From Blattamonas nauphoetae (lineage: Eukaryota; Preaxostyla; Oxymonadida), in the NCBI GenBank assembly GCA_033064195.1, contig JARBJD010000073.1:1-64000 (forward strand): a stretch of 64,000 bases of DNA. The letters are read 5' to 3'. Below are positions 20,284-32,404 of this stretch, in pieces (the first letter of the stretch is position 1; each line of letters starts with the position of its first letter). The translations under genes were made by a program, and so were the position numbers. The notes under the pieces are model-generated. The model ran no database searches. It was given only the letters and a program-made list of their open reading frames with translations, and was not told where the DNA came from.

Positions 20284-20939
20284 AATCGTCAATTCTCGAT
20301 TATGGGGACTCAGATGTGAGTACTCTGTTGTGGGACGATCAAGACTCAATCAGACGATAGTCCACATTTGCAGGGTTTATAGTTGTCTGACACTTTACAC
20401 GAGAACGTGAGGTTAAAAGACCTCACCTCCCCATTTTGGAGGTGAGGTCTCCTGGTGTCCAAATTAGGACACTCAAATGTGAAAAAAGTGAGATCATCGA
20501 CCACATCACGACTCTCCGACACCATTTCGCACCTTAAATTTCCTTCAATTTCACCGGACACAGTTGAATTTCTCTTTTTTTCGCAAAAAACACAGAAATT
20601 GTCACTTGATCCAGATGACATAAAAGTTGGTGGGTTGGATCAATTCTCAGTTTTTCCATCGAGTGATCCAACGAGACTTTCAATTTGATTTTAGATGTGA
20701 AATGAGCTTCTCGAATCCATTTTAGGGAGGAGCAATTGTCCGGACAGAGGGGTGCGCTGTCCGACCTCGGACAGCGCTTATTTCGGAGGTCAAGCAAATT
20801 AGGCGAAACAATGGGTGGGATCAGAACTGGAGAGTAAAAGAGAGGAGAATAACAGTGATGCCGCACGAAAGATAATACAGACGGGTTTGATCTCTTAGTT
20901 ACTGAAGTATTTTTCCTTGTGCATTCTTATCATTCGCAA

Positions 20940-22776
20940 ATTTTCCAGCGCGAACACACAACCATCCCCAAATCACATGGCGTAGTTGCGGGAGGTGCCG
21001 ACTCGCATCACACAACATACCCAAGTGTGCTCTTTCTGTTCAACATTGTCTTTTGCTCATATTCTCTTTCCCTTCAGGTGAACTCCTGCTCGATCGTGCC
21101 CCCTCCCTCACTCATCCCCGATTGTTGGCGTTGCCGATCCCTGGCATTATGCAGCGCAAACAGGTTTGCTCTCTCTGTTCCTCATTCTTTCATCACTTTA
21201 TCTCTTTCCCTTCAGGTGAACTCCTGCTCGATCGTGCCCCTCCCTCACTCATCCCCGATTGTTGGCGTTGCCGATCCCTGGCATTATGCAGCGCAAACAG
21301 GTTTGCTCTCTCTGTTCCTCATTCTTTCATCACTTTATCTCTTTCCCTTCAGGTGAACTCCTGCTCGATCGTGCCCCCTCCCTCACTCATCCCCGATTGT
21401 TGGCGTTGCCGATCCCTGGCATTATGCAGCGCAAACAGGTTTGCTCTCTCTGTTCCTCATTCTTTCATCACTTTATCTCTTTCCCTTCAGGTGAACTCCT
21501 GCTCGATCGTGCCCCCTCCCTCACTCATCCCCGATTGTTGGCGTTGCCGATCCCTGGCATTATGCAGCGCAAACAGGTTTGCTCTCTCTGTTCCTCATTC
21601 TTTCATCACTTTATCTCTTTCCCTTCAGGTGAACTCCTGCTCGATCGTCGAACCTTCCCTCAACCGAACGAGATCGTTGCGGCAACCGATCACTCGCGTG
21701 CTGTGACATATACCGGTCTGCTCTCGCTCTTTTTCATCTTTCACTCTCCTAGATGCACTTTTTACCTTTCTTTCACCTCTCTTGTGTAGATCCGAGTCTC
21801 TACTCTCATGCAGTCATCATTTCGGTATTTTATTTCCTTTAAAACTCTCCCTGTTCTTTCCTCACTCTCTTCTAGATTCCCAGAACTCAAGCAACGACTT
21901 CATTTCATACCAACATCACTTTGTCTGTTCGAGAAAAGCGATTGAAATTACGGAAGGAGACGATGAGGAAAAGCTTCAGAGACATGAGAAAAGGGAAGGA
22001 GGAGATGAGAATGGGGTAGGAGGAGATGAGAAAGGGGAAGGAGGAGATGAGAATGGGGAAGGAGGAGATGAGAATGGGGAAGGAGGAGATGAGAATGGGG
22101 AAGGAGGAGATGAGAATGGGGAAGGAGGAGATGAGAATGGGGAAGGAGGAGATGAGAAAGGGGAAGGAGGAGATGAGAATGGGGAAGGAGGAGATGAGAA
22201 AGGGAAGGAGGAGATGAGAATGGGGAAGGAGGAGATGAGAATGGGGAAGGAGGAGATGAGAATGGGGAAGGAGGAGATGAGAATGGGGAAGGAGGAGATG
22301 AGAATGGGGAAGGAGGAGATGAGAATGGGGAAGGAGGAGATGAGAATGGGGAAGGAGGAGATGAGAATGGGGAAGGAGGAGATGAGAATGGGGAAGGAGG
22401 AGATGAGAATGGGGAAGGAGGAGATGAGAATGGGGAAGGAGGAGATGAGAATGGGGAAGGAGGAGATGAGAATGGGGAAGGAGGAGATGAGAAAGGGGAT
22501 GGAGGAGATGAGAATGGGGAAGGAGGAGATGAGAAAGGGGTAGGAGGAGATGAGAATGAGGTAGGAGGAGATGAGAATGGGGAAGGAGGAGATGAGAATG
22601 GGGAAGGAGGAGATGAGAATGGGGAAGGAGGAGATGAGAATGGGGAAGGAGGAGATGAGAATGGGGAAGGAGGAGATGAGAATGGGGAAGGAGGAGATGA
22701 GAATGGGGAAGGAGGAGATGAGAATGGGGATGGAGGAGATGAGATTGGGAATCAGATTGGCTGTCTTAGAGTCTAA
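20940..22776 (+). CDS. Probable multi-exon acidic-repeat gene of hAT-OTU copy 1
   Basis: The plus strand carries regularly spaced splice-like signals: exon-like blocks of 67-86 nt separated by T-rich GT...AG segments of about 52 nt, repeated in tandem (see the 137-bp array). Two more intron-like segments follow (about 21714-21788 and 21824-21875). The last exon runs into the 21-bp minisatellite and in the GDENGEG frame ends EIGNQIGCLRV with TAA at 22774-22776. Exact exons and start are not established, and unit-length changes shift the frame inside the minisatellite. The product would be very acidic if the GDENGEG frame is used. I do not recognise a family. It is convergent with the transposase gene, 95 bp apart. 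Confidence 0.4.
21078..21765 (+). repeat. 137/138-bp exon-intron tandem array, copy 1
   Basis: Units start at 21078, 21216, 21353 and 21491, with a diverged terminal unit at 21629. Each is an exon-like part of 85-86 nt beginning GTGAACTCCTGCTCGATCGT and an intron-like part of 52 nt (GTTTGC...CCCTTCAG). A more diverged unit precedes the array (about 20950-21077). All three plus-strand frames stay open across much of the array. Confidence 0.9.
21985..22750 (+). repeat. 21-bp minisatellite, copy 1
   Basis: Roughly 36 units of 21 bp (ATGAGAATGGGGAAGGAGGA plus one base), with variants GAAAGGGG and GGGTAGG. Translation is GDENGEG or MRMGKEE according to frame. Confidence 0.95.
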
Positions 22777-22871
22777 ATCACTCTCTGATCACTCTTTCGC
22801 TTTCCATTCTAAAACAGTTCTGACCCAAATCAACATTTTGATCAACATGAAATGAATCACCCTTCTCTCAA

Positions 22872-25661
22872 TTACTTGGCTACTGGAATCATCGGCTGAT
22901 AATGATTCCCATTAACATAGGCAACACGAAGAGCTGGTTGTTGGCGAACGACTTGTGATGGTTGAAGCATCGTTGCAATCGGCCTCATGCAACTGGAATG
23001 GATGATGATCTGTCTCTGGAGAAGGTGGGACACAGCAACTATTTCCCACATCTCAACTGGGGTGGTTTGGAGAAGGTTCTCGCTCATTCTGTTCTCCCAG
23101 TCGTGTAGAAACGTATCAACATCGATCGACTCTCTGTTCTGATTCATATATTCCACCGTTTGTCTTCTAAGCTCGGAAACAGAAAGGTCAACATGGGGGA
23201 GGAGAAGAAGAATGGAGTGGTAGAAGCAGGAACCATTGGTCACAGAGTCGCCCCTAGTCCAACATCTCGCATATCTCGCGTCGAATCGGATTTCATCCAG
23301 AGATCTTGGATCAGTTCGAATGGATTTCGAATCACTGCCACCATTCACACGTAACTCCATCTGCATGGAGGACTCATCTCGTTTTCTCTTTTCTATTGGT
23401 GGTAGGCTGTGAAAGGATTCAGGCAGAGAAGCAACTCGAAGAATGGCGTCATTCGTTTTGGACGACAACCGGGGACGTTTGAGGGAAGCATGGCGCTTCA
23501 CAACCTTGATTGTCCTTTCGGCTGCTGCTTGGGTTGGAGGAGTACGGAGCAACGTGTCTGCGAGAAATGCAAGATGATAGAATTCCGAGTCTTCAGTTTC
23601 GACTTCCTTCTTCCAAAAGTCGAGACTGCTTCTCATCAAACGGTGTTGGTTCGGAACTGTTCCTCCTTCAAGCCACACTTCATAGGTAGACAAATTCCGA
23701 TCTATTTCTTCCTTTTGTGCCTTGGGGAAGGTGGATTCGAGAAGGATTTCGAGGTTTGCGACCATTGAGCTGGTTTGTGTTAATTGCGGAATGAAGGAAC
23801 TGGCCAGTGGACGGGTGAATCGGACCACTTCATCAATTTCAACAGCCACTTCGACTCCTTTCGAGACAGAATCACCTGGTTGTACGAGTAGAATGATTTC
23901 GTCATCATCACTTCTCCTCATCGAGGACCTCTCGTCAAGGCAAGTTCTCCAAGACTCCCTCTTTCTCTGTCGAGCTTGTTCAATGGAATGGATTGCCACT
24001 GTATCCTCATCATCCTCTTCACTCTCCATTTCTACTTCGGATTCCTCTCGATTCTTTGTCGTCCGTTGCAACTTAGTTCGAAGCCTGTTGATGAATGCTT
24101 CATCCCAGTGTTCTGGCCGACTAGGTCGGTGCCATTCTGATATCAGACCGTCCACACAAGTCAAGAAAGTTCTGCCTTGATACGCCTCTCTCCCACACGA
24201 CGTCAGAGAGTATCCGAGAATGGCTGCGTACCCGTCGTCATCGAGGAGAGTGAGTCGACACACCTCGGTGGCCAAGTCGTTGATGAGATTGGCCCATTGA
24301 AATGAGACAGAGTGCACACTTTGTGCAAGGGAGCACAACAGATAGACGAGGTTTGTGAGGAGTGGTGGTGAGTTTGCAATCGACATGGTATTCCTCTCTA
24401 AAATGCCAACTGTATTGAAGAGAGGGTTAATCAAGTCGTGAAGGAGGTCCATAAAATGGAGTTCACTGTCGGATAGAGCCATCAATGTCGAAAGCGATAG
24501 ACGGTTCGCTCTGTACCATTGAACAATCGGGCCGCACGAAATCCAACGCGAGCCGATGAACTTTGGCGGATTGGGGACATCTGTTTTGGAGATTGGTACA
24601 GTCTCGGAAAAAGTGGAAAGAAGTTCGAGTGATGCTCGAAGGAGAACTGATCGAGAGTGAAGATGACGAAGGGCTGTGTTCAGTTTGTGGGCCCAACACT
24701 GGAAATGAAGTGGTACGAAACCATACAACTCGGACAATGGCTGAAGCAGCATCTCCCTTCTCGCTTCAGTGTTCGGATGAAACACCGATACGTATCCAGA
24801 GCCTCCATCCGTTACGAAGCAGTGGATCCGCACTCCAGTTTCATATAGATTCCTCACTTCATCAAGGATAGCAGTGGCAGAATCAATGCCGCTCGCTGAT
24901 ATTTCCCGAATGGAGTGAAAACGAGGGAAAGATTGTTGACTTGGATCTGTAAGAACGAACACGTGTGTGTGTTCGTGACCAGCTGGTGGTGTCACCCCAT
25001 CGACGCACATTGACACAGTGGACGTCACATCACAAGATGTTTCTCGAAGTTGTTCCGATAGTTTGACCATGTTTCGGGAGAGTGAGAATCGAGATGTTTG
25101 AGGAAGAAGTTCAGAAGTGGGCCTGTTGGGAAACCTTTGACCAAGTTTGATGAGCGATTCTTCCATTTTTACAAACCCATTGTCTTCAACCGTCCTGAAT
25201 GGTGTTCCGGATCGGGCAAAGAATACAAGAACTGACTGCTCAACCTGAGAGAGTTGAGAATCTCTCTCATGATTCTGTGCTTCTTCGATTGTCCTCCTAT
25301 GACCTGCTTCAATGAGCGCGGATATTGTTTGGGTGGATGATGGGTTGAACCGACATTGATGAGCATCGAAAGAAGTGAGGGTTCCACGACCATAGAAGCG
25401 GCATAAGCTCCCATTTTTATCCAGACTGAGACATTGAAAATCTTTTTTGTCGGCGCATAAAGATTTCGTTCGGAGGTTTAAGCGATAGTATTTCGCATAG
25501 GCTCTTCCGCCACTTGTTTTCCTCTCAACTCTTGTAATGATGAGAGATTGATTATGAGGATGGCGGATAATGTCTTTTTCTTCAAATGGTGACGAGTTAA
25601 TGAGAAAAGAGAAGACCAGTTGCGTTGTGAATTGTTTTTTTCGAATTGATTTCGATCTCAT
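22872..25661 (-). CDS. hAT transposase fused to an OTU-like cysteine protease domain
   Basis: A single 929-codon ORF. The N-terminal third includes a Cys/His patch (CLSLDKNGSLC...HQC) that could be a divergent DNA-binding finger. The RNase-H-like catalytic core shows CVDGVTPP, FVTDGGSGYV and CWAHKLNTALRH. The hAT C-terminal dimerisation motif is YHLAFLADTLLRTPPTQAAAE followed by R..KVVKRHASLKRPRLSS (about residues 690-740). An acidic linker lies near residue 530. Residues 804-929 match the OTU pattern: NGSCFYHS (nucleophile Cys812), a W-E-I-V-A-V-S helix, and AYVNGNHYQPM (His920). The transposase would move the element. An OTU domain would cleave ubiquitin-like conjugates, perhaps protecting the transposase; that is inference. 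The usual Asp before the OTU Gly-x-Cys is Asn here, so activity is uncertain. Confidence 0.88.
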   Translation of the reverse strand: MRSKSIRKKQFTTQLVFSFLINSSPFEEKDIIRHPHNQSLIITRVERKTSGGRAYAKYYRLNLRTKSLCADKKDFQCLSLDKNGSLCRFYGRGTLTSFDAHQCRFNPSSTQTISALIEAGHRRTIEEAQNHERDSQLSQVEQSVLVFFARSGTPFRTVEDNGFVKMEESLIKLGQRFPNRPTSELLPQTSRFSLSRNMVKLSEQLRETSCDVTSTVSMCVDGVTPPAGHEHTHVFVLTDPSQQSFPRFHSIREISASGIDSATAILDEVRNLYETGVRIHCFVTDGGSGYVSVFHPNTEARREMLLQPLSELYGFVPLHFQCWAHKLNTALRHLHSRSVLLRASLELLSTFSETVPISKTDVPNPPKFIGSRWISCGPIVQWYRANRLSLSTLMALSDSELHFMDLLHDLINPLFNTVGILERNTMSIANSPPLLTNLVYLLCSLAQSVHSVSFQWANLINDLATEVCRLTLLDDDGYAAILGYSLTSCGREAYQGRTFLTCVDGLISEWHRPSRPEHWDEAFINRLRTKLQRTTKNREESEVEMESEEDDEDTVAIHSIEQARQRKRESWRTCLDERSSMRRSDDDEIILLVQPGDSVSKGVEVAVEIDEVVRFTRPLASSFIPQLTQTSSMVANLEILLESTFPKAQKEEIDRNLSTYEVWLEGGTVPNQHRLMRSSLDFWKKEVETEDSEFYHLAFLADTLLRTPPTQAAAERTIKVVKRHASLKRPRLSSKTNDAILRVASLPESFHSLPPIEKRKRDESSMQMELRVNGGSDSKSIRTDPRSLDEIRFDARYARCWTRGDSVTNGSCFYHSILLLLPHVDLSVSELRRQTVEYMNQNRESIDVDTFLHDWENRMSENLLQTTPVEMWEIVAVSHLLQRQIIIHSSCMRPIATMLQPSQVVRQQPALRVAYVNGNHYQPMIPVAK

Positions 25662-26150
25662 GAGTGAAATGTTTTTTGTGCATAGATCTCTGTTCTGATG
25701 GCTGAAAGAGTTGAAAATCTTAACGAGTGCGAAGTTGAAACTGATGAAGAAGTTACCTTCCGATTCGAGTTCGAATCAAAAACTGTCGCGTGGGTTGATC
25801 GTCCGATGTCCGGGACTGGACAGTTATGTCCGTTTTCAATTGATCACGATTGGATAATAAAGAAATTCAAATCATTCTTTTTTTCAATACAGGAGAGATT
25901 GTCCAAGATCGGACATGGTTGGACATTTAAACAATTAATGGGTCATTTTGTCCGAATTCTCAATTCATGTTTCTAATCTCTATTTATGGACAAATTTTGA
26001 ACAATATCATGATTTAAAAAGTGTTTAAACTCGAATGGAGGGTTATTCACAGGTAGTCACGTTGCAAGAATTGAATTATCTCAGATTGGACATGACCTCT
26101 GTCCGATGTCCGAAGAAACTCTTGTTTTGTCCGTCCGTTGCTCATCCTTA

Positions 26151-26683
26151 GGTGATTTGGCTCTCAATCGAACACAAGAACAGTTCAACCGCGATTCGAA
26201 CGGCCCACATGCTCCAAGTCCGCAAGCAATCATGCCACCAGACCACGGACCACGAGTGGAAGAACCTGAAGAATAAACTGCTTCATCAATAATTCACCAC
26301 ACAAGAGTGTTTCCCTTCGTTCTGTCAGTCTTTTCTAAAACGAGTGGTCTCAAAAATAAATCCGAAAAAGAGCCGTTCATTTCTGAACAATCACTGTTCA
26401 TTTCCGAATAATCATTGTTCATTTCAGAAAAATCACTGTTCATTTACGAATAATTCATGTTCATTTCTGAAAAATTAAAATTCATTTCTGAACAATCATG
26501 TTCATTTCTGAACAATCAAAACACATTTCTGAACAATTATGTTCATTTCTGAATAATTAAAATACAATTCAGAACTAGTCGAGCTGTATATTTGAGAATC
26601 GAGACGAGCTTTGTGGTTGAATGACATGAATTGAGTCGTGGGCTTAGAAACACCAATTTTGGTTTGAATCATGACCCATTGAT
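26151..26683. other. Spacer between the two hAT-OTU copies
   Basis: 533 bp, unlike either element. The left half is unremarkable. The right half (about 26376-26575) is an imperfect tandem repeat of a 20-22-bp unit of the type TTCATTTCTGAACAATCA. No gene. Confidence 0.7.
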
Positions 26684-26899
26684 TAGGGAGGAGCAATTGT
26701 CCGGACAGAGGGGTGCGCTGTCCGACCTCGGACAGCGCTTATTTCGGAGGTCAAGCAAATTAGGCGAAACAATGGGTGGGATCAGAACTGGAGAGTAAAA
26801 GAGAGGAGAATAACAGTGATGCCGCACGAAAGATAATACAGACGGGTTTGATCTCTTAGTTACTGAAGTATTTTTCCTTGTGCATTCTTATCATTCGCA

Positions 26900-28785
26900 A
26901 ATTTTCCAGCGCGAACACACAACCATCCCCAAATCACATGGCGTAGTTGCGGGAGGTGCCGACTCGCATCACACAACATACCCAAGTGTGCTCTTTCTGT
27001 TCAACATTGTCTTTTGCTCATATTCTCTTTCCCTTCAGGTGAACTCCTGCTCGATCGTGCCCCCTCCCTCACTCATCCCCGATTGTTGGCGTTGCCGATC
27101 CCTGGCATTATGCAGCGCAAACAGGTTTGCTCTCTCTGTTCCTCATTCTTTCATCACTTTATCTCTTTCCCTTCAGGTGAACTCCTGCTCGATCGTGCCC
27201 CTCCCTCACTCATCCCCGATTGTTGGCGTTGCCGATCCCTGGCATTATGCAGCGCAAACAGGTTTGCTCTCTCTGTTCCTCATTCTTTCATCACTTTATC
27301 TCTTTCCCTTCAGGTGAACTCCTGCTCGATCGTGCCCCTCCCTCACTCATCCCCGATTGTTGGCGTTGCCGATCCCTGGCATTATGCAGCGCAAACAGGT
27401 TTGCTCTCTCTGTTCCTCATTCTTTCATCACTTTATCTCTTTCCCTTCAGGTGAACTCCTGCTCGATCGTGCCCCTCCCTCACTCATCCCCGATTGTTGG
27501 CGTTGCCGATCCCTGGCATTATGCAGCGCAAACAGGTTTGCTCTCTCTGTTCCTCATTCTTTCATCACTTTATCTCTTTCCCTTCAGGTGAACTCCTGCT
27601 CGATCGTGCCCCTCCCTCACTCATCCCCGATTGTTGGCGTTGCCGATCCCTGGCATTATGCAGCGCAAACAGGTTTGTTTCTCTCTGTTCCTCATTCTTT
27701 CATCACTTTATCTCTTTCCCTTCAGGTGAACTCCTGCTCGATCGTCGAACCTTCCCTCAACCGAACGAGATCGTTGCGGCAACCGATCACTCGCGTGCTG
27801 TGACATATACCGGTCTGCTCTCGCTCTTTTCATCTTTCACTCTCCTAGATGCACTTTTACCTTTCTTTCACCTCTCTTGTGTAGATCCGAGTCTCTACTC
27901 TCATGCAGTCATCATTTCGGTATTTTATTTCCTTTAAAACTCTCCCTGTTCTTTCCTCACTCTCTTCTAGATTCCCAGAACTCAAGCAACGACTTCATTT
28001 CATACCAACATCACTTTGTCTGTTCGAGAAAAGCGATTGAAATTACGGAAGGAGACGATGAGGAAAAGCTTCAGAGACATGAGAAAAGGGAAGGAGGAGA
28101 TGAGAATGGGGTAGGAGGAGATGAGAAAGGGAAGGAGGAGATGAGAATGGGGAAGGAGGAGATGAGAATGGGGAAGGAGGAGATGAGAATGGGGAAGGAG
28201 GAGATGAGAATGGGGAAGGAGGAGATGAGAATGGGGAAGGAGGAGATGAGAAAGGGAAGGAGGAGATGAGAATGGGGAAGGAGGAGATGAGAAAGGGAAG
28301 GAGGAGATGAGAATGGGGAAGGAGGAGATGAGAATGGGGAAGGAGGAGATGAGAATGGGGAAGGAGGAGATGAGAATGGGGAAGGAGGAGATGAGAATGG
28401 GGAAGGAGGAGATGAGAATGGGGAAGGAGGAGATGAGAATGGGGAAGGAGGAGATGAGAATGGGGAAGGAGGAGATGAGAATGGGGAAGGAGGAGATGAG
28501 AATGGGGAAGGAGGAGATGAGAATGGGGAAGGAGGAGATGAGAATGGGGAAGGAGGAGATGAGAATGGGGAAGGAGGAGATGAGAATGGGGAAGGAGGAG
28601 ATGAGAATGGGGAAGGAGGAGATGAGAAAGGGGTAGGAGGAGATGAGAATGAGGTAGGAGGAGATGAGAATGGGGAAGGAGGAGATGAGAATGGGGAAGG
28701 AGGAGATGAGAATGGGGAAGGAGGAGATGAGAATGGGGATGGAGGAGATGAGATTGGGAATCAGATTGGCTGTCTTAGAGTCTAA
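26900..28785 (+). CDS. Probable multi-exon acidic-repeat gene of hAT-OTU copy 2
   Basis: Same organisation as 20940-22776, with five standard 137/138-bp units instead of four and a shorter minisatellite. In the GDENGEG frame it ends EIGNQIGCLRV, with TAA at 28783-28785. Exon limits are not established. Because the unit number differs while the flanks are almost identical, the array expands or contracts on a short time scale. Confidence 0.4.
27039..27860 (+). repeat. 137/138-bp exon-intron tandem array, copy 2
   Basis: Units start at 27039, 27177, 27314, 27451 and 27588, and the terminal variant at 27726. Unit composition is as in copy 1. Confidence 0.9.
28080..28765 (+). repeat. 21-bp minisatellite, copy 2
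   Basis: Roughly 32 units of the same 21-bp sequence as in copy 1. Confidence 0.95.
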
Positions 28786-28880
28786 ATCACTCTCTGATCA
28801 CTCTTTCGCTTTCCATTCTAAAACAGTTCTGACCCAAATCAACATTTTGATCAACATGAAATGAATCACCCTTCTCTCAA

Positions 28881-31668
28881 TTACTTGGCTACTGGAATCA
28901 TCGGCTGATAATGATTCCCATTAACATAGGCAACACGAAGAGCTGGTTGTTGGCGAACGACTTGTGATGGTTGAAGCATCGTTGCAATCGGCCTCATGCA
29001 ACTGGAATGGATGATGATCTGTCTCTGGAGAAGGTGGGACACAGCAACTATTTCCCACATCTCAACTGGGGTGGTTTGGAGAAGGTTCTCGCTCATTCTG
29101 TTCTCCCAGTCGTGTAGAAACGTATCAACATCGATCGACTCTCTGTTCTGATTCATATATTCCACCGTTTGTCTTCTAAGCTCGGAAACAGAAAGGTCAA
29201 CATCGGGGAGGAGAAGAAGAATGGAGTGGTAGAAGCAGGAACCATTGGTCACAGAGTCGCCCCTAGTCCAACATCTCGCATATCTCGCGTCGAATCGGAT
29301 TTCATCCAGAGATCTTGGATCAGTTCGAATGGATTTCGAATCACTGCCACCATTCACACGTAACTCCATCTGCATGGAGGACTCATCTCGTTTTCTCTTT
29401 TCTATTGGTGGTAGGCTGTGAAAGGATTCAGGCAGAGAAGCAACTCGAAGAATGGCGTCATTCGTTTTGGACGACAACCGGGGACGTTTGAGGGAAGCAT
29501 GGCGCTTCACAACCTTGATTGTCCTTTCGGCTGCTGCTTGGGTTGGAGGAGTACGGAGCAACGTGTCTGCGAGAAATGCAAGATGATAGAATTCCGAGTC
29601 TTCAGTTTCGACTTCCTTCTTCCAAAAGTCGAGACTGCTTCTCATCAAACGGTGTTGGTTCGGAACTGTTCCTCCTTCAAGCCACACTTCATAGGTAGAC
29701 AAATTCCGATCTATTTCTTCCTTTTGTGCCTTGGGGAAGGTGGATTCGAGAAGGATTTCGAGGTTTGCGACCATTGAGCTGGTTTGTGTTAATTGCGGAA
29801 TGAAGGAACTGGCCAGTGGACGGGTGAATCGGACCACTTCATCAATTTCAACAGCCACTTCGACTCCTTTCGAGACAGAATCACCTGGTTGTACGAGTAG
29901 AATGATTTCGTCATCATCACTTCTCCTCATCGAGGACCTCTCGTCAAGGCAAGTTCTCCAAGACTCCCTCTTTCTCTGTCGAGCTTGTTCAATGGAATGG
30001 ATTGCCACTGTATCCTCATCATCCTCTTCACTCTCCATTTCTACTTCGGATTCCTCTCGATTCTTTGTCGTCCGTTGCAACTTAGTTCGAAGCCTGTTGA
30101 TGAATGCTTCATCCCAGTGTTCTGGCCGACTAGGTCGGTGCCATTCTGATATCAGACCGTCCACACAAGTCAAGAAAGTTCTGCCTTGATACGCCTCTCC
30201 CACACGACGTCAGAGAGTATCCGAGAATGGCTGCGTACCCGTCGTCATCGAGGAGAGTGAGTCGACACACCTCGGTGGCCAAGTCGTTGATGAGATTGGC
30301 CCATTGAAATGAGACAGAGTGCACACTTTGTGCAAGGGAGCACAACAGATAGACGAGGTTTGTGAGGAGTGGTGGTGAGTTTGCAATCGACATGGTATTC
30401 CTCTCTAAAATGCCAACTGTATTGAAGAGAGGGTTAATCAAGTCGTGAAGGAGGTCCATAAAATGGAGTTCACTGTCGGATAGAGCCATCAATGTCGAAA
30501 GCGATTGACGGTTCGCTCTGTACCATTGAACAATCGGGCCGCACGAAATCCAACGCGAGCCGATGAACTTTGGCGGATTGGGGACATCTGTTTTGGAGAT
30601 TGGTACAGTCTCGGAAAAAGTGGAAAGAAGTTCGAGTGATGCTCGAAGGAGAACTGATCGAGAGTGAAGATGACGAAGGGCTGTGTTCAGTTTGTGGGCC
30701 CAACACTGGAAATGAAGTGGTACGAAACCATACAACTCGGACAATGGCTGAAGCAGCATCTCCCTTCTCGCTTCAGTGTTCGGATGAAACACCGATACGT
30801 ATCCAGAGCCTCCATCCGTTACGAAGCAGTGGATCCGCACTCCAGTTTCATATAGATTCCTCACTTCATCAAGGATAGCAGTGGCAGAATCAATGCCGCT
30901 CGCTGATATTTCCCGAATGGAGTGAAAACGAGGGAAAGATTGTTGACTTGGATCTGTAAGAACGAACACGTGTGTGTGTTCGTGACCAGCTGGTGGTGTC
31001 ACCCCATCGACGCACATTGACACAGTGGACGTCACATCACAAGATGTTTCTCGAAGTTGTTCCGATAGTTTGACCATGTTTCGGGAGAGTGAGAATCGAG
31101 ATGTTTGAGGAAGAAGTTCAGAAGTGGGCCTGTTGGGAAACCTTTGACCAAGTTTGATGAGCGATTCTTCCATTTTTACAAACCCATTGTCTTCAACCGT
31201 CCTGAATGGTGTTCCGGATCGGGCAAAGAATACAAGAACTGACTGCTCAACCTGAGAGAGTTGAGAATCTCTCTCATGATTCTGTGCTTCTTCGATTGTC
31301 CTCCTATGACCTGCTTCAATGAGCGCGGATATTGTTTGGGTGGATGATGGGTTGAACCGACATTGATGAGCATCGAAAGAAGTGAGGGTTCCACGACCAT
31401 AGAAGCGGCATAAGCTCCCATTTTTATCCAGACTGAGACATTGAAAATCTTTTTTGTCGGCGCATAAAGATTTCGTTCGGAGGTTTAAGCGATAGTATTT
31501 CGCATAGGCTCTTCCGCCACTTGTTTTCCTCTCAACTCTTGTAATGATGAGAGATTGATTATGAGGATGGCGGATAATGTCTTTTTCTTCAAATGGTGAC
31601 GAGTTAATGAGAAAAGAGAAGACCAGTTGCGTTGTGAATTGTTTTTTTCGAATTGATTTCGATCTCAT
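28881..31668 (-). pseudogene. hAT transposase-OTU gene, copy 2 (frameshifted)
   Basis: Same gene as 22872-25661. A 2-base deletion in a CTCTC run at about 30198 splits it into a 5' ORF (31668-30130, residues 1 to about 490 plus altered tail) and a 3' ORF (30203-28881) that keeps the hAT dimerisation motif and the OTU domain. It cannot make the full fusion, so any movement of the compound would rely on copy 1 or another source. Confidence 0.88.
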
Positions 31669-32404
31669 GAGTGAAATGTTTTTTGTGCATAGATCTCTGT
31701 TCTGATGGCTGAAAGAGTTGAAAATCTTAACGAGTGCGAAGTTGAAACTGATGAAGAAGTTACCTTCCGATTCGAGTTCGAATCAAAAACTGTCGCGTGG
31801 GTTGATCGTCCGATGTCCGGGACTGGACAGTTATGTCCGTTTTCAATTGATCACGATTGGATAATAAAGAAATTCAAATCATTCTTTTTTTCAATACAGG
31901 AGAGATTGTCCAAGATCGGACATGGTTGGACATTTAAACAATTAATGGGTCATTTTGTCCGAATTCTCAATTCATGTTTCTAATCTCTATTTATGGACAA
32001 ATTTTGAACAATATCATGATTTAAAAAGTGTTTAAACTCGAATGGAGGGTTATTCACAGGTAGTCACGTTGAAAGAATTGAATTATCTCAGATTGGACAT
32101 GACCTCTGTCCGATGTCCGAAGAAACTCTTGTTTTGTCCGTCCGTTGCTCATCCTTAATCCATTTAATGAAAAAAAAGAGGAAATTTCTCCTTGATAGAG
32201 CTTATTGAGATAATCGAAGCGAAAAACAGCACCTCATTTTTTTCCACTATCCATCTCATATTTAGAAATTTTGTTCAATCTATAATCAATTTTTCATGAA
32301 ATGAGAATCCTCGTGAAAATTAAACCAAAAACATAAATTAGAATAGAGGTGAGGTCTTTTGAGGGTGAGTCAGGTGAGGACCCGATCCAAACCCTGCACA
32401 TTTG

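Follow-up and report, generated by a model that had tools for sequence, protein, structure and literature searches.

A compound block of two hAT-like elements in Blattamonas nauphoetae and its candidate origin as a natural macrotransposon

At the start of contig C701 of Blattamonas nauphoetae, an oxymonad protist of the cockroach gut, two nearly identical copies of a hAT-like element lie around a short spacer and are enclosed, as one block, by a single 8-bp target-site duplication. The block is probably a natural hAT macrotransposon, which would have formed at a second locus, on contig C334, and moved to C701 by its two outer ends. The window analyzed here is the first 64,000 nucleotides of C701, and the genome searched comprised 88.3 Mb in 837 contigs; the published assembly is slightly larger (879 contigs, 88,537,989 bp; PMC10703272).

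Architecture of the block and its element

With its outer duplications, the compound unit occupies positions 20715 to 32165 of the window, and the unit proper is 11,435 bp long (20723-32157). It consists of element copy 1 (20723-26150, forward strand, 5428 bp), a spacer of 533 bp (26151-26683, forward strand), and element copy 2 (26684-32157, forward strand, 5474 bp). The two copies have the same orientation and the same ends, and 5331 of their 5337 ungapped aligned columns are identical (99.9%), the remaining differences being array lengths and small indels. The element is bounded by terminal inverted repeats (5'-TAGGGAGGAGCAA and TTGCTCATCCTTA-3') that are alike at 11 of the first 13 positions; copy 2 begins precisely with the element's first base, and both outer ends of the unit, 5' and 3', are intact. 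The duplicated octamer, ATCCATTT, is present at 20715-20722 on the left and at 32158-32165 on the right. The inner flanks, GGTGATTT on the right of copy 1 (26151-26158) and CCATTGAT on the left of copy 2 (26676-26683), match neither each other nor the outer ones. In 200,000 draws of two random window positions, an 8-mer was shared 12 times. These data confirm the compound structure as it is read in the assembly, and with it the description given by the sequence-only reading, namely two near-identical direct copies of about 5.4 kb around a 533-bp spacer, with an 8-bp duplication at the outermost ends only.

Each copy contains a gene on the minus strand for a predicted hAT-like transposase with a C-terminal OTU-like domain: (i) in copy 1, an open frame of 967 codons (22872-25775); and (ii) in copy 2, an interrupted version of the same gene (28881-31782), which is read as two overlapping frames (28881-30209 and 30130-31782). 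Assignment to the hAT superfamily rests on the 8-bp duplications, which are found at 4/4 undisturbed copies of the element as well as at the outer ends of the compound unit, on hAT-type ends (TAGGG-type ends are typical of hAT elements), and on a weak match to the C-terminal dimerization domain. The Pfam Dimer_Tnp_hAT match of the copy 1 protein (E-value 0.006, 16.8 bits) lies under the cut-off of 21.4, and the same domain matches six of seven relatives, likewise weakly. Three of four weak matches to solved structures are to the Hermes transposase (E-values 0.008-0.013), the fourth being to an unrelated translation factor; a profile search with the transposase gave no matches, and its predicted structure model is unusable (mean pLDDT 29.7). 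The OTU-like cysteine protease domain is recognized at an E-value of 5.1e-07 and also occurs in six of the seven relatives. Two protein searches (about 8000 candidates scored in each) returned the same seven relatives, all from B. nauphoetae, and no report of an OTU domain together with a hAT transposase was found in the open-licence literature. No passenger gene was seen in the block.

Minisatellite arrays lie within both copies, at 21063-22749 in copy 1 (units of ~138 bp at 21063-21743 and of 21 bp at 21984-22749) and at 27024-28758 in copy 2 (units of ~137 bp at 27024-27745 and of 21 bp at 28079-28758). Among the eight near-identical copies in the genome, the arrays vary between 4 and 12 units of ~138 bp and between 25 and 47 units of 21 bp.

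The target site on C701 and the source of the spacer

Paralogous repeats elsewhere in the genome carry the site of the block in its uninterrupted form, with a single ATCCATTT and no spacer, at all 10 loci fetched (8 distinct places; both strands were read). Within the same repeat copies, matches to the left flank stop and matches to the right flank start with an overlap of 8 bp (e.g., C128, 127588-127945 and 127938-128184). Because these repeats carry the site unoccupied and continuous across a single ATCCATTT, this octamer is a genuine target-site duplication of the entire 11,435-bp block, and the spacer is foreign to the C701 locus. Two near-identical copies would also lie close together if they had inserted at C701 separately, or if two such insertions had undergone unequal crossing-over, an alternative that the sequence-only reading had itself named as refuting. 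The foreign origin of the spacer excludes both routes, which retain practically no probability: the spacer is C334 sequence, the repeat runs uninterrupted through ATCCATTT at 10 of 10 loci, and neither C701 copy on its own has matching flanks.

The spacer is identical at 533 of 533 bp (100% identity) to positions 645128-645660 of C334 (minus strand), with which it is collinear throughout. It is composed of the end of one repeat, R1 (to about 26588), joined to a second repeat, R2 (from about 26586). The first base of the R1 portion is where the match starts in 40 of the 46 spacer matches listed, C701 and C334 included, and among 83 matches listed (the best-scored candidates) the R1-R2 junction is spanned by two, those at C701 and C334. 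At C334, the spacer begins with GGTGATTT directly after the 3' end of another copy of the element, C334A; at its far end CCATTGAT continues into ordinary DNA, as it does at 5/5 other R2 loci. Because CCATTGAT is uninterrupted there, C334 represents the state in which the first element is present and the site of the second is unoccupied. Unoccupied versions of the three insertion sites (ATCCATTT, GGTGATTT, and CCATTGAT) are therefore all on record in paralogous repeats; the target duplication is confined to the outer ends of the block, and the two inner flanks are donor-derived, the spacer being collinear with C334.

Beyond the two copies on C701, six near-identical copies are present in the genome. 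Those on C9, C101, C90, and C836 are undisturbed, and each has its own perfect 8-bp duplication, whereas C334A and C334B have swapped duplications: C334A is flanked by TTCTGCGT on the left and GGTGATTT on the right, and its inverted partner, C334B, by GGTGATTT on the left and TTCTGCGT on the right. Taken together, the left flank of C334B and the right flank of C334A restore the R1 repeat as it is found at 10/10 R1 loci. Because the swapped flanks restore R1, the segment of ~11.4 kb between C334A and C334B must have been inverted after both insertions, and the original C334 element (element A) was flanked by GGTGATTT at either end. The 10 R1 loci and the swapped duplications prove that this element had first inserted at GGTGATTT.

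The interval C334:645661-667987, with two inverted copies and exchanged 8-bp duplications, is also of interest in its own right, as it marks an inversion of ~11.4 kb through recombination between elements. A Galileo inversion in Drosophila has the same signature, an inverted pair of copies with exchanged target duplications (PMC2775673). Galileo, however, belongs to the P superfamily and makes 7-bp duplications (PMC2775673), whereas the C334 pair is of hAT type, with 8-bp duplications and an inverted segment of ~11.4 kb.

The sequence-only reading predicted a donor locus in which copy 1 is preceded by GGTGATTT and copy 2 is followed by CCATTGAT. The GGTGATTT half of this donor is found at C334, because element A originally had GGTGATTT on both sides; the spacer follows the element that was originally at GGTGATTT, and GGTGATTT also stands to the left of C334B after the inversion. 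The CCATTGAT half did not appear: a right junction of the element at CCATTGAT has no match in the genome with up to 2 mismatches allowed, and the left junction at CCATTGAT has one genome match only, C701 itself. Neither search revealed a two-copy donor in the genome searched.

Nor, C46 apart, was a second compound unit, of the kind that the sequence-only reading proposed to look for, seen among the end matches listed (the best 39 and 40 candidates scored), where no other pair of near-identical copies lay close together in direct orientation. On C46 (547888-557053), a related family has 5' and 3' end matches on one strand with a separation of ~9.2 kb, and the corresponding spacing is ~2.4-2.7 kb at C63, C23, C111, C317, and C376; the wide spacing at C46 may possibly reflect inserted sequence or another compound unit. 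On C118 (122283-123018), two 5' ends of a related element are separated by 666 bp. This locus was rejected as a compound unit, as it is a tandem repetition of a 5' fragment plus its left flank; the second copy of the fragment is followed by a lengthy stretch of short GC-rich repeats.

Formation and movement of the block

According to the favored account, the history of the block begins with the element at GGTGATTT in repeat R1 of the C334 locus. At a distance of 533 bp, a further copy would have entered the neighboring repeat R2 at CCATTGAT, with the orientation of the first; C701 displays the junction of CCATTGAT with the precise element end, and the partner junction is nowhere in the genome searched. 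Transposase would then have acted on the two outermost ends of the pair, 5' in the first copy and 3' in the second, and the 11,435-bp block would have moved to ATCCATTT on C701, with formation of the 8-bp duplication now seen there. A version of C334 without the second copy exists, and the inversion between its two inverted copies came later. In favor of this origin are the true outer 8-bp duplication, the collinear 533-bp spacer beside the 3' end of the C334 element, and the GGTGATTT site; the start of copy 2 at the exact element base would fit the action of a transposase, and maize Ac units that reinsert or excise provide, by analogy, a precedent for movement of such a block. Against it, the donor with both copies was not found in the genome searched, the end matches listed contain no second compound unit that was recognized, and copy 1, which takes the place of the C334 element, differs from that element in its array lengths and at a CT site, while copy 2 resembles it.

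This last point derives from the lineage markers. If element A was carried along as copy 1, then copy 1 is expected to resemble A, whose left part would now be in C334B and right part in C334A, provided that the inversion crossover fell in the interval that separates the arrays from the CT site. In the 21-bp array, copy 2 is one unit-change away from C334B and copy 1 five; copy 2 and C334B have six 138-bp units each and copy 1 has five; and the CT is absent from copy 2 and, among the eight copies, elsewhere from C334A only. The array and CT markers would thus place copy 2, rather than copy 1, nearest the C334 element, which argues slightly for recombination. A single resident element may have sat at C701 with its own ATCCATTT duplication, to which ectopic recombination added the spacer and a second element, so that the left part of copy 1 would descend from the resident and the left part of copy 2 from the C334 element. 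This could have come about through repair with a two-copy C334-type donor as template, or through a single crossover with a circle composed of the C334 element and its 533-bp flank. That copy 2 resembles the original C334 element in its 21-bp array, its six 138-bp units, and its missing CT speaks for such a resident, as does the fact that copies of this family did recombine with each other at C334. However, the markers are slippage-prone and were read from a polished, nanopore-based assembly: C101 likewise has six 138-bp units, copy 2 and C334B differ in their unit variants, differences of the CT type are found repeatedly within the arrays, and C9 has the first 23 units of its 21-bp array in common with both C701 copies. 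In the eight-copy comparison, the private substitutions outside the arrays number two in copy 1, one in copy 2, and zero in the C334 copies, and none of the substitutions there is common exclusively to one C701 copy and a C334 copy. Substitutions therefore do not decide between the origins. The CCATTGAT-element junction would, moreover, still have to form before a resident could acquire it, and we consider recombination into a resident element unlikely, although it is the alternative to be taken most seriously.

A circle could arise from transposase acting on element ends that lie on two sister chromatids. In that case, hybrid-end transposition would have freed the C334 element with its 533-bp flank and joined the left end exactly to CCATTGAT, and the circle would have recombined into the resident C701 copy, which would make it the eukaryotic equivalent of a translocatable unit of IS26. 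This specific course of events is improbable in our estimation; if true, donor DNA would have been captured from one element, and two linked donor copies would be unnecessary. Outer-end movement of the whole block, as put forward by the sequence-only reading, is partly supported. It is the simplest account and agrees with the true target duplication and with the source of the spacer, but recombination or circle integration would yield the same structure, and recombination fits the weak markers slightly better.

An error of assembly, in which a simple insertion at C701 and a two-copy allele of C334 were merged through the near-identical element, is improbable. In its favor, the copies are 99.9% identical, and the genome was assembled with Canu from nanopore reads sheared at ~20 kb, and then polished (PMC10703272). 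The block is not one copy counted twice, however, because array lengths and single bases differ between the copies; the C334 contig is without a second copy, and the CCATTGAT-element junction must in any case exist somewhere.

Composite insertion by transposition-induced re-replication is a very unlikely source of the block. In the maize model, the reversed ends of two elements insert before a replication fork, and the flanks are re-replicated and joined; the products have element-end borders, donor flanks, and 8-bp duplications (PMC4270019), as does the C701 block. The process as described also requires a new internal junction of switched flanks (PMC4270019), whereas all 533 bp of the spacer are collinear with C334, and the C334 elements are inverted and face each other, which is not the arrangement of that model. 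A junction may nonetheless lie hidden inside the repeats.

Relation to known composite systems

Bacterial composite transposons consist of two copies of an element, here considered in direct orientation, around passenger DNA, and the C701 block is like them in this respect. It is unlike them, and unlike IS26, in being composed of eukaryotic cut-and-paste hAT elements and in having no passenger gene that could be seen. Entry of one element and its flank beside a resident copy, as in the translocatable units of IS26 (PMC4894685), finds its parallel in recombination with a resident C701 element rather than in movement of the block as a macrotransposon.

Macrotransposons of the maize Ac/Ds system have reportedly been described by Huang and Dooner (2008) and Wang et al. 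(2022). In maize, a 10.3-kb Ac unit reinserted and a 28-kb unit excised (PMC9910405), and one Ac/Ds unit mobilized as much as 100 kb (PMC3260210). As portrayed in these accounts, Ac/Ds macrotransposons resemble the C701 block in that two linked hAT copies or ends act as one unit, with host DNA between them and an 8-bp duplication outside (PMC9910405; PMC3260210). The C701 block differs in that it is a natural copy in a protist, with a short, repeat-derived cargo of 533 bp and the source of the spacer in the same genome; it is known from sequence alone. Re-replication composites of maize, according to their description, are also alike in having outer element ends, inner donor flanks, and an 8-bp duplication, but in these the switched flanks are fused at a new junction (PMC4270019), whereas the C701 spacer is collinear with its donor.

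No report of a macrotransposon from a protist was found among the open-licence papers listed, a search of the same literature for transposable elements in B. nauphoetae gave no paper, and the cases of macrotransposition that were found, within the extent of the accounts concerned, are from maize (PMC9910405; PMC4270019; PMC3260210). In eukaryotes, one way for cut-and-paste elements to carry host DNA could be macrotransposition. The C701 block would add a natural case from a distant protist, in which the target, the source of the spacer, and the insertion sites are legible in one genome and the copies are still nearly identical. The origin of eukaryotic composite transposons thereby becomes testable by the typing of strains at two loci.
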